Assembly: GCA_004296885.1 (NCBI GenBank)
Contig: SCVN01000015.1
Coordinates: forward strand, 62,001 to 126,000
DNA from: Nitrospirota bacterium
GTDB taxonomy: Bacteria; Nitrospirota; Nitrospiria; Nitrospirales; Nitrospiraceae
Length of the DNA: 64,000 nucleotides
Direction: 5' to 3'
Shown here: in pieces, positions 52,032-56,352 of the stretch
Position numbering within the stretch: position 1 is the stretch's first letter
How the letters are laid out: each line of letters opens with the position of its first letter
The notes under the pieces: model-generated
The model's input: the letters and a program-made list of their open reading frames with translations, nothing else
What the model was told of the DNA's origin: nothing
The model's database searches: none
Made by a program: the position numbers and the translations under genes

Positions 52032-55000
52032 TTACGAGCAGCCGCTCGTCGCGCCGCAGTTCATGCACTTGAGACAGGTCCCGTTGCGCACCAACGTAAA
52101 CTCCTTGCAGTTTTGACAGGGATCGCCTTCGTAACCTTTCAAGCGCGCCAGCTCGACGGTCGTATAGGTCAGCGTTTCGCGTTTCAGCTCCAGCTTATGC
52201 GCCACCGCGCCGTTGCCGCCGTTTTCGCCGTTGCCGTGTCCGTTGCTGCCGTTGCCGTTCCTGCGCCTGGCCGGAAAGACCTCCGGGCTGATCGAGGAGG
52301 AGGCGAGGGCTTGCGGGTCCGCTTCTTCGCTGTCCTTGCACTCAGGGTCTTGCTCGTCCTTCTTCACCGAATCCATGCGCAGATCTTCCGGTACCACTTG
52401 CGCCAAGTCGTGGCGGCCCAGGTAGGTGATGGCCAACTCGCGGAAGATGTAGTCGATGATCGAGGTGGACATCTTGATCCGGTCGTTCAGCTTGACCGGA
52501 CCGTTGGGCTCGAACCGGGTGAACACGAAGGCCTCGACGAACTCCTCCAGCGGCACCCCGTGCTGGAGTCCCAGCGAAATGGCGATCGCGAAGCAGTTCA
52601 TCAGGCTGCGGAAGGCCGCCCCTTCCTTGTGCATGTCCAGGAAGATCTCGCCCACGGTCCCGTCGCTGTATTCGCCGGTCCGCAGATAGATCTTGTGCCC
52701 GCCCACAATCGCCTTCTGCGTGTAGCCCAACCGCCGTTCCGGCATCCGCCGCCGCCTCGCCAGGTAGCGGACGAGCACCCGCTCGGTGATCTTTTCGGCG
52801 GTCGCCAGCACGTCCCCGCTGGCCGCCGCATCGGCCAGCTCGCCGGAATCCGAGGCCGAGTTGAGCGGCTGACTGAGCTTCGAGCCGTCCCGATAGAGGG
52901 CCACGGCCTTGACCATCGAATGCCAGGACAACAGATAGGAGGCCTTCACCTCCTCCACCGTCGCGTCCGCCGGCATGTTAATGGTCTTGCTGATCGCCCC
53001 GCTGATGAAAGGCTGCGCCGCCGCCATCATCCGGATATGGGCGTCTACGGCGATATACCGCTGGCCCGTGCGGCCGCACCGGTTGGCGCAGTCGAAGACC
53101 GGCAGGTGTTCCGGCAGCAGATGCGGCGCCCCCTCGACGGTCATGGTGCCGCAGCAATAGTCGTTGGCGACGACGATCTGCTCCTGGGTGAACCCGAGCG
53201 CCTTGAGCATGTTGAAGTTCGGCTCGTTGATCTGCGCGTCGGTCAGGCCCAGCTTTTCGCGGCAGAACTCCTCCCCCAGCGTCCACTTGTTGAACGCAAA
53301 CTGGATCTCGAAGGCCTGGCCCAGGCCCGCTTCCAGCCGGTCCAGCGCCGCCCCGTCGAAGCCCTTGGCTTGCAGGCTCTCATGGTTGATGAACGGCGCC
53401 CCCTTGAGCGTCCTGCGGCCGGTGCAGAAGGTGACGATCTCCTGGACCTGCGCCTCGTTGTACCCGAGGGTGACCAGCGCCGGCGGGATGCTTTGGTTGA
53501 TGATCTTGAAGTAACCGCCGCCGGCCAGCTTCTTGAATTTCACGAGTGCAAAGTCCGGCTCGATCCCGGTGGTGTCGCAGTCCATGACGAGGCCGATCGT
53601 GCCGGTGGGGGCAATGCACGTCACCTGCGCGTTGCGGAACCCATACGCCGTGCCCAGTTCCAGCGCCTTGTCCCAGGCCCGCCGCGCTCCGATCAACAGA
53701 TCCGGCGGGCAATATTCCGGCTGAATGCCCTGCGGCTTGATCGTCAGCCCTTCGTACTCCTCCGGCGCCGCATGGTAGGCGGCCCGCCGGTGGTTGCGGA
53801 TGACCCGGAGCATGGGTTCGCGGTTCCGCGCATACCCGTCGAAGGGGCCCAGCTCGGCCGCCATCTCCGCCGAAGCCGCATAGGACTCGCCGGTCAGGAT
53901 CGCCGTCAGCGCCCCGCAAATCGCCAGGGCTTTCGGGGAATCGTAGGGAATCCCCTGCCGCATGAGCACCGTGCCCAGGTTGGCATAGCCCAGCCCCAGC
54001 GTGCGGTAGATGAAGCTCTTTTCGGCAATGGCCTTGCTCGGGAACGAGGCCATCAGCACGCTGATTTCCAAGGCGATGGTCCAGAGCCGCACGGCATGGC
54101 GGAAATCATCCAGCCGCAACTGGCCGTCGGCTTCGTAGAATTCGCTCAGGTTCAGCGAGGCCAGGTTGCAGGCCGTGTCGTCCAGGAACATATATTCGCT
54201 GCAAGGGTTGGACGCATTGATGCGCCCGTCCTCCGGGCAGGTATGCCATTCGTTGATCGTCGTGTCGTACTGCGTGCCGGGATCGGCGCAGATCCAGGCG
54301 GCCCAGGCGATCTTGTCCCAGAGCTCGCGGGCCTTGATGGTCTTGGTGACCTTGCCGTCCGTGCGGCGCTTGAGCGCCCAGTCCCCGTCCTGCTCCAGGG
54401 CCTCGAAGAACCCGTTGGGAATGCGCACGCTGTTGTTGGAATTCTGTCCCGACACGGTCTGGTAGGCCTTACCGTCCCAGTTCGTGTCGTACTCGTGGAA
54501 GACGAAGTGGGTGAACCCTTCCTGGGCATAGGAGAACATCCGCTGGAGATAGGCTTCCGACACAGCCGACTGCCGCGCGGCCTTGATGGCCCGTTTGAGG
54601 GCTTCGTTCTTCGCCGGATCGATCTCGACTTTCATCGTGCCGTTGCCGTCCTGCACGTGACAGGCGCGGAGTACTTCGTTCAGCCGCTGCGCGCAGATCT
54701 TGGAGCCGGTGACCATGGCCGCCACCTTCTGCTCCTCGACCACCTTCCAGTCGACGAACTCTTCGATGTCGGGATGGTCCAGGTCCAGGCAGACCATCTT
54801 GGCCGCACGCCTCGTGGTTCCGCCGGACTTGATGGCGCCGGCCGCCCGGTCGCCGATCCGGAGGAAGGACATCAGGCCGGAGGAACGGCCTCCGCCCGAG
54901 AGGGGCTCGTTGTCCCCGCGCAGCTTGGAGAAGTTCGTGCCGGTGCCGGACCCGTATTTGAACAGCCGCGCCTCCCTGGTCCAGAGGTCCATGATCCCGC

Positions 55001-55586
55001 CCTCGTTGACCAGGTCGTCGTCCACCGCCTGAATGAAACAGGCGTGTGGCTGGGGATGTTCGAAGGCGTTCGTCGCCTTGACCATCTCCTTGCTCTTCGG
55101 ATCGACGTAATAGTGCCCCTGGGACGGGCCGGAGAGGCCGTAGGCGTAGTGCAGACCCGTATTGAACCATTGGGGCGAGTTGGGCGCCGCCATTTGGCGC
55201 GCCAGCATGTAGCACATTTCGTCGTAGAACGAGGACGCGTCTTCGTCCTTGGTGAAGTAACCGTAGCTTTTTCCCCAATAGGTCCAGCAACCGGCCAACC
55301 GATGGAAGACCTGCCGCGCATCCCGCTCGCCCCCCAGCACCGGCGTGCTCTCCTGGGTGAGCAGGGGCTTCCCGTCGGGACCGACCTGGGGCACTCCGGC
55401 CTTCCGGAAGTATTTCTGCGCCAGGATGTCAACGGCGAGTTGGGTCCATTTCTCTGGCACATCGATGTTGTCCAGCTTAAAGACCGTGGAGCCATCAGGA
55501 TTCTTGATCTCTGAGGAACGCTTGGCGAACGGCATGTCCTGATAGGGACTCTGCCCCCGTTGCGTAAATCGACGCTCGATCCTCAC
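52032..55586 (-). CDS. nrdJ: Class II (adenosylcobalamin-dependent) ribonucleotide reductase
   Basis: 1184 residues from GTG 55586, with AGGAGG nine bases upstream. NrdJ reduces ribonucleotides using AdoCbl to generate a thiyl radical and needs no oxygen. Visible: redox Cys in [31 protein letters not shown], the active-site [11 protein letters not shown] (radical Cys and Glu), [24 protein letters not shown], and a C-terminal region with CQNC...CMNC, a zinc-ribbon or reductant-accepting tail. A Gly/Asn-rich linker precedes the tail (about 1115-1135). Expression is probably set by the structured leader and terminator directly upstream. Confidence 0.96.
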
Positions 55587-55644
55587 AATGTCTCCCTCCT
55601 GCTGGTTATGGGACCCGACTCTGGCTCAACGGCCTGTGGGTGCC

Positions 55645-55684
55645 AAAAAGAAAAGCGAACACCGGGAGTCCGCAGTGTTCGCTT
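55645..55684 (-). terminator. Intrinsic terminator in the nrdJ leader
   Basis: On the minus strand a perfect 10-bp stem (AAGCGAACAC with GTGTTCGCTT, 12-base loop) is followed by TTTTCTTTTT. It lies between the nrdJ promoter and its start codon, so it would stop transcription before nrdJ unless disrupted. Confidence 0.85.
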
Positions 55685-55711
55685 CCGTTCAGGAAACCCC
55701 TGTTCTGGCTT

Positions 55712-55806
55712 GTTCGTCCGGCTGACCCTCGAGTCTGAGAGGTTCAGATCGCGTCATCTGAGGCCCTCGTTCGACATGTGCATCACCTCTAGGAAACCGG
55801 ACGAAC
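55712..55806 (-). ncRNA. Candidate riboswitch aptamer in the nrdJ leader
   Basis: A perfect 10-bp closing stem, GTTCGTCCGG (55806-55797) with CCGGACGAAC (55721-55712), encloses 75 bases. Inside, AGAGGT/ACCTCT and TCAGAT/ATCTGA can form nested helices; an alternative 9-base pairing (55722-55730 with 55739-55747) excludes both. A 9-codon frame (55754-55783) with AGAGGTG upstream also lies inside. It is followed 28 bases later by the terminator. I do not see a standard B12-box, so the class is not assigned; AdoCbl is the obvious candidate ligand. Confidence 0.6.
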
Positions 55807-55809
55807 CGC

Positions 55810-55838
55810 AATATATGGCGAAGCCAACTGTTTGTCAA
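55810..55838 (-). promoter_or_regulatory. Strong sigma-70-like promoter of nrdJ
   Basis: On the minus strand TTGACA (55833-55838), a 17-base spacer and TATATT (55810-55815). This is the best promoter match in the window. Transcription would start near 55803, at the 5' side of the closing stem, giving a leader of about 215 bases. The rest of the gap up to 55977 has no feature I can name. Confidence 0.8.
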
Positions 55839-55977
55839 TACCAAATGTTGTGGGGTCCTGTTGATCGGCAGGGAAAGGCTGTGGATAGAAAAAACGCCGC
55901 GTCCCGTGCGGTTGGGACCCAACTTGATCGTCAGATATCAACAGGCAACCGGGCTGCGGAATGCCCTTGGGAAGGAC

Positions 55978-56352
55978 TTAGTTCGCCTGCTTGAGTCCGA
56001 GCGCTCCGATTTTTTTCGTCACTTGCTCGACGCCTTGCACGGGCCAAAACACTCCTCCGGCTCCGAGCACCAGAACCCGCTCCCCCAGGAAGCTGGTTTC
56101 AAAGAGGCTGAAGAGTCCGTAGCTGCGGCGCACCGTATTCGGACGAACGACGGCCCCGATCACTTGCCGGCCCTGCGGCGTCGTCAGTAGCGCACCCGCC
56201 AGATCCGACTTGCCTTGCGGCCACTGCTCAAGCGCCAGGACCAGACGTTGTTCCAGGAAGGCGACATAGTCCTGCGTCGTCGGATTGGTCAGCGCAAGCC
56301 AGACGCTGATCCCCAGCAGCGCCACGACGAAGCCCAAACTCCGGTTACTCAT
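55978..56352 (-). CDS. Small exported protein, DUF4359-like
   Basis: 124 residues. One N-terminal membrane segment (MSNRSLGFVVALLGISVWLALTNP) precedes DYVAFLEQRL, then a C-terminal part RRSYGLFSLFETSFLGERVLVLGAGGVFWPV. 'TNP..DY..FL' and 'YGLFS' followed by a glycine-rich strand fit DUF4359, a family of unknown function. Probably anchored in the membrane with a periplasmic domain. It ends 140 bases before the nrdJ promoter. Confidence 0.65.
   Translation of the reverse strand: MSNRSLGFVVALLGISVWLALTNPTTQDYVAFLEQRLVLALEQWPQGKSDLAGALLTTPQGRQVIGAVVRPNTVRRSYGLFSLFETSFLGERVLVLGAGGVFWPVQGVEQVTKKIGALGLKQAN

Follow-up and report, generated by a model that had tools for sequence, protein, structure and literature searches.

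Ribonucleotide reductase is the source of all DNA precursors, and the transcriptional control known so far for its genes is exerted by NrdR, at initiation. Leader-peptide attenuation is itself long known. In the pyrBI operon of E. coli, an operon of nucleotide metabolism, a short leader frame reaches the terminator and regulatory amino-acid codons are unnecessary. The Nitrospira lineage, with which this work is concerned, includes nitrite oxidisers. At reductase promoters, NrdR boxes lie about three helical turns apart and contain conserved G-C pairs (PMC9110341). The effect of translation on a downstream terminator has been described in E. coli: termination at tR2 fell from ~90% to <10% when the stop codon ahead of it was shifted from 28 bp away to 5 bp, a loss that was abolished without translation, and a terminator located ≤100 bp from a start codon loses just ~10% of its efficiency, as the ribosome has not yet caught up (PMC4824070). 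Attenuators with short ORFs are also present in the mgtCBR leader of Salmonella, one of them responsive to ATP (PMC3641672), and the ilvB-II motif of Corynebacterium, a riboswitch-like candidate RNA, was recognized on comparison as a uORF used for attenuation (PMC10272879). The literature searched, with most subscription journals outside its scope, yielded no attenuator for nrdJ or other reductase genes, and an attenuator at nrdJ is apparently unreported.

The window, a 64,000-nucleotide stretch of DNA from a genome of the Nitrospira family, carries nrdJ on its minus strand behind a promoter, a leader and an intrinsic terminator (Table 1). On balance, and with slightly better than even confidence, we read this control region as an NrdR-repressed promoter combined with a translation-coupled uORF attenuator. 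An attenuator downstream of this promoter would give an essential B12-dependent gene one more level of control, beyond NrdR. The sigma-70-type promoter, the perfectly complementary 10-bp stem, the strong terminator with its T tract and the identity of the downstream gene as B12-dependent nrdJ had all been proposed in the first-pass annotation and are borne out here; the uORF and the tandem NrdR-type boxes had been overlooked. The genome also encodes a second, shorter ribonucleotide reductase (G000:C23:67999-69405; NrdJ_Z, TIGR02504, 696 bits, 589-aa frame), and B12-dependence is common to the two reductases found.

Table 1. Features of the nrdJ control region, in window coordinates.
Feature	Position	Strand	Details
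NrdR-type box 1	55838..55853	-	CCACAACATTTGGTAT; kept upstream of nrdJ throughout the Nitrospira family
Sigma-70-type promoter	55810..55838	-	TTGACA-17-TATATT; 11/12 matches, 0.1 such sites expected from shuffles
-35 element	55838-55833	-	TTGACA; spacer of 17 to the -10
-10 element	55815-55810	-	TATATT
NrdR-type box 2	55806..55821	-	TCGCCATATATTGCGG; overlaps the -10; 32 bp from box 1
Closing stem (P1), 5' arm	55797..55806	-	10 bp, perfectly complementary to the 3' arm; without covariation support
Mini-frame	55754..55777	-	MSNEGLR, then stop; good Shine-Dalgarno (AGAGGTGA); stop overlaps uORF start as ATGA
Start hairpin	55739..55768	-	GAGGGCC-UCAGAU-GACGCG-AUCUGA-AC-CUC; holds Shine-Dalgarno-like GAGG and uORF AUG; stem almost unchanged across 9 genomes of 5 genera, loop variable
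uORF	55689..55757	-	22 codons, MTRSEPLRLEGQPDEQARTGVS, then stop; stop 4-6 nt before the terminator stem
Closing stem (P1), 3' arm	55712..55721	-	within uORF codons 13-16
Intrinsic terminator hairpin	55653..55684	-	within the terminator span 55651-55686
Terminator T tract	55645..55654	-	TTTTCTTTTT
nrdJ	52032..55586	-	adenosylcobalamin-dependent ribonucleotide reductase, 1184 aa, GTG start; NCBIfam PRK07562 equivalog, 1946.6 bits

Tandem 16-bp palindrome-like sites surround the -35 and -10 elements, 31-33 bp apart, in nearly all Nitrospira-family members with a readable promoter. In the window, box 1 has C..G at two positions termed highly conserved in the NrdR boxes of S. coelicolor (PMC9110341). 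A genome-wide search for the box-1/-35 pattern returned only two sites, the nrdJ promoter and one other, and the same genome encodes nrdR (TIGR00244, 199.7 bits). The features expected of an NrdR regulon member, namely a promoter with two palindromic boxes in tandem, spaced by about three helical turns, and an nrdR gene in the genome, are both found, and NrdR is predicted to bind the nrdJ boxes. The locus resembles NrdR-controlled reductase promoters in this spacing, in the overlap of the boxes with the polymerase site and in the presence of nrdR, and differs from them in having an extra attenuator between promoter and gene (PMC9110341). No further promoter was found between the terminator and nrdJ. 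Elsewhere in the genome, a second tandem NrdR-type site (L161, G000:C19:149691-149740; ATACAACATTTAGTATTGACA, then CCGCGATATATAGTTT 32 bp on) lies upstream of a 59-aa protein beginning MARRIYACPCGQ, with zinc-ribbon-like cysteines and weak Pfam zinc-finger matches only.

The comparison drew on nrdJ upstream regions from 26 whole-genome loci and 80 loci from GTDB genomes, including three further genomes of the window's genus. Within the Nitrospira family, leaders longer than 175 nt contain a terminator in 14 of 18 cases, with ~0.5 expected by shuffling; short leaders (59-153 nt) have one in 0 of 39. By the same criteria, none was found in g9, g11, g18 and g22a. The position of the terminator is kept among relatives even though its sequence differs completely from genus to genus; no other observation points as strongly to functional retention at this site. 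Conservation of the terminator in relatives, as expected of a leader-peptide attenuator, is thus observed among the long leaders. Given this order of promoter, leader and intrinsic terminator ahead of nrdJ, control of the gene after transcription initiation is likely. As a control for ordinary spacing, only seven terminators were found in the window's genome, with stop-to-terminator distances of 24-88 nt plus one at -2 (doubtful frame); so small a set carries little weight.

In about nine genera, an upstream frame of 22-31 codons, often beginning MxxSEP, has its stop only a few bases from the terminator, and its Shine-Dalgarno sequence usually lies inside a hairpin. Such frames read MGKSEPQEMSQGQQDKRPTQGHSTQRSPQE and MDKSEP... 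in g8, MAQSDPQDMHVGQSDNEPSNSL in g12, MKRSEPHNLTESQPGFQFIPVIPGLIQE in g20, MGRSESHTIPQCQPGGKSIPGKSAPGLFQV in g14 and MAVPGFHKLPDSKPDNQFSLENSMA in g16; those of g5, g7 and g22b are present and less similar. The stop codon is typically flush with the terminator stem (e.g., ...GAGTAAGCAGGCGCC, ...GTATAAGCAGGCGCC, ...GGATAAGCGAATATC). This arrangement was scored in 10 leaders from nine genera, with three requirements: a Shine-Dalgarno sequence of 4 nt or more, a length of 15 codons or more and a stop no more than 8 nt from the stem. Seven of the ten passed against 1.2 expected when the 8 nt beside the terminator were kept and the rest shuffled (P 1.6e-5, an optimistic value because the pattern was already known when the test was drawn up and the genera, treated as independent, are not fully so). 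The passing frame of g5a differs from the frame most like those of its relatives, and the frames of g7 and g22b have no clear Shine-Dalgarno sequence. A short ORF with a putative ribosome-binding site thus lies at a position from which it could affect the terminator, a further property of leader-peptide attenuators.

In the aligned lineages (g1, g8, g12, g20 and g14), the uORF is the only frame open in all six representatives. Its replacements are conservative beyond what column permutation yields (P 0.024), and the sole gap inside it is 3 nt long. Between g8a and g8b, 0, 3 and 7 differences fall at codon positions 1, 2 and 3. Within the window's genus (four genomes), the codon positions change about equally, with no third-position bias, and in g8a a 1-nt shift after codon 17 carries the main frame past the terminator. 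Taken together, these comparisons indicate that the reading frame seems to be kept and the peptide only loosely. A conserved functional small protein was rejected as a reading of the uORF, as there is no Pfam match and the C-terminal half is free to vary. The mini-frame that overlaps the uORF start is open throughout the window's genus (four genomes) and was not seen in other genera; its function is doubtful.

Weak conservation of the peptide is also compatible with a fixed attenuator, in which the promoter drives a short transcript that ends at a leaky terminator, nrdJ expression is reduced to a fixed degree, the uORF is either incidental or the relic of a small gene, and regulation falls entirely to NrdR. 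Two further points agree with it: the NrdR boxes account for regulation in the terminator-free relatives with short leaders, and the fold of the window lacks a mutually exclusive antiterminator. Against it, the frame and the position of its stop relative to the terminator have been kept through indels and full sequence turnover between genera. We hold it to be unlikely, though it is the main rival of the favoured reading.

The first-pass annotation had interpreted the leader as a transcriptional riboswitch, with a domain closed by the 10-bp stem and inner helices in competition with a 9-base alternative pairing. None of 200 shuffles folds as well as the full leader (z -4.8). The z-score is -2.9 for the domain without the terminator. 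For a shorter piece, which starts ~4 nt into the closing stem and runs as far as the uORF stop, it is -1.2 in the window and between -1.8 and +1.5 in relatives, most of which thus have an unexceptional fold once the terminator is left out. Much of the structural signal is therefore that of the terminator. With +1 placed ~7 nt after the -10 by the usual promoter spacing, the 5' arm of the stem, which starts just 4 nt after the -10, probably has its outer ~3 bases upstream of +1 and untranscribed. Of the three sister genomes, two (g1c and g1d) have a broken stem, and in other genera it is largely lost, with several pairs gone in g8b, g12, g20 and g14. A CCGG/CCGG core and a few flanking pairs persist in g1, g14 and g20, and some long-range pairing in the leader may therefore exist. 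The covariation score of the whole named structure was matched by 218 of 500 shuffles, and the RNAalifold covariation term was unfavourable (+1.66). All the named features are in place, but the competing pairing does not exclude the terminator: the closing stem P1 and the terminator coexist in the minimum-energy fold, and a mutually exclusive antiterminator in the window was rejected on this ground.

At gathering score, Rfam returned nothing over the whole window except a tRNA elsewhere. At E<=10, positions 55500-56000 gave no match to any family, including cobalamin (RF00174) and the related AdoCbl families; this negative may not extend to the nrdJ RNA motif, whose inclusion in Rfam 15 is unconfirmed. 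At 17 relatives' nrdJ loci no match fell over any leader, the lone weak one being Actino-pnp at L125 3108-3139, outside the leader. A cobalamin riboswitch would suit the cofactor of NrdJ, yet the nrdJ leader does not match RF00174 and two clear members are found elsewhere in the genome (G000:C19:82563-82801 and 86012-86285; 84 and 85 bits, ~3.4 kb apart). Since the model recognizes these two, its silence at the nrdJ leader is informative. A known riboswitch or other Rfam family was thus rejected for the leaders of the window and of these 17 relatives' loci.

In a metabolite riboswitch responding to adenosylcobalamin or a nucleotide, the P1 domain would be the aptamer and the terminator its output. 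The order of promoter, structured leader and terminator suits this idea, as do the z-score of the domain and the surviving CCGG/CCGG core with its flanking pairs. So does the leader of g22b (L120), whose 5' end, GGCCCGCTA, is complementary to TAGCGGGCC, a segment overlapping the 5' arm of the terminator (9 bp, by eye); this antiterminator-like arrangement is unlike that of the window and absent from the predicted best fold. The missing Rfam matches, covariation no better than in shuffles, the broken stem in g1c, g1d, g8b and g12, the want of a fixed aptamer core across genera and the coexistence of P1 with the terminator all count the other way. P1 as a conserved aptamer was rejected for the lack of covariation. 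The first-pass annotation had itself named such a lack across related nrdJ leaders as evidence against its proposal, and this outcome weakens the riboswitch reading, which we now regard as very unlikely. What stands of that interpretation is the promoter, leader and terminator with likely post-initiation control; the metabolite-binding aptamer is not supported, and a small frame that ends at the terminator accounts better for the region ahead of it. More generally, a promoter, a structured leader and a terminator may mimic a riboswitch while the signal is the translation of a tiny frame.

The start hairpin is the other structured element of the leader. Across g1, g8, g12 and g20 its stem, which includes untranslated bases, hardly changes although the loop codons vary, and it is altered in g14; such invariance provides no covariation evidence. 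A riboswitch or an RNA-binding protein acting on this hairpin, with a ligand setting uORF translation and hence termination, would fit the near-invariance of the stem down to its untranslated 5' arm UCAG, and a GAGG/CCUC pairing of this kind can be read in g9 and g22a as well. Nevertheless, the conserved stem never covaries in the alignment, its z-scores where present are just -0.4 to -2.2, and the change in g14 is a further point against this idea, to which we give even less credence than to the aptamer.

Under the favoured combination of NrdR repression and uORF-coupled attenuation, high dATP would lead NrdR to repress the nrdJ promoter through its two boxes three helical turns apart. Once initiated, the nrdJ transcript would carry the 22-codon uORF with its stop abutting the terminator. 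A ribosome on the uORF moving in step with RNA polymerase would cover the 5' arm of the terminator and block the hairpin, allowing read-through into nrdJ; with the uORF untranslated or the ribosome lagging, transcription would stop at the terminator. The start hairpin around the Shine-Dalgarno sequence and start codon would set how often the uORF is translated. Both the translation of the uORF and its effect on termination are inferred, the latter from the tR2 precedent: with a stop 4-6 nt before the stem, uORF translation should favour nrdJ transcription and its absence termination. A 22-codon frame lies within the ~100-bp range in which E. coli terminators are weakly affected, and regulation would consequently depend on pausing of the polymerase, as in pyrBI, or on fast initiation. 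Candidate signals are translation capacity, nucleotide-dependent polymerase pausing of the pyrBI kind, and a factor acting on the start hairpin. An attenuator acting in this way would in effect sense the tightness of coupling between ribosome and polymerase. A second nucleotide- or cofactor-sensing layer below NrdR, in which a ligand or the nucleotide supply alters the start hairpin or pausing and thereby ties nrdJ transcription to uORF translation, is conceivable but quite unlikely.

Among the described systems, the locus shares with pyrBI-type attenuation a leader frame that reaches the terminator, putative coupling to translation and a gene of nucleotide metabolism. The frame of the window stops at the 5' edge of the terminator, whereas that of pyrBI passes it; the pause site is hypothetical here, and the controlled gene is nrdJ instead of pyrBI (E. 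coli; named in PMC4824070). The ilvB-II peptides are rich in regulatory amino acids, a bias not seen in the nrdJ uORF (PMC10272879). The mgtCBR leader has two ORFs with known signals and is unrelated to the nrdJ leader in sequence and gene (PMC3641672).

A tree of NrdJ on 132 residues was poorly supported, one on 600 residues was distorted by an insertion in some of the proteins, and a single origin of the attenuator finds no clear support in these trees. An intein-like in-frame insertion follows FEHPQPHAC (QPY.ALVSTPQGPMPIG...) in NrdJ of several genera (e.g., L117, L119 and L123); the NrdJ of the window has none. In another Nitrospirales family (L060, L061 and L062), nrdJ leaders of ~290-320 nt lack an intrinsic terminator and contain, after an NrdR-type promoter, a conserved upstream frame of 61-71 codons starting MDQSR[VI]RLR. 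A CCTCC near the stop of this frame could pair with the Shine-Dalgarno sequence of nrdJ, and the frame is possibly a translational version of the same uORF attenuation idea.
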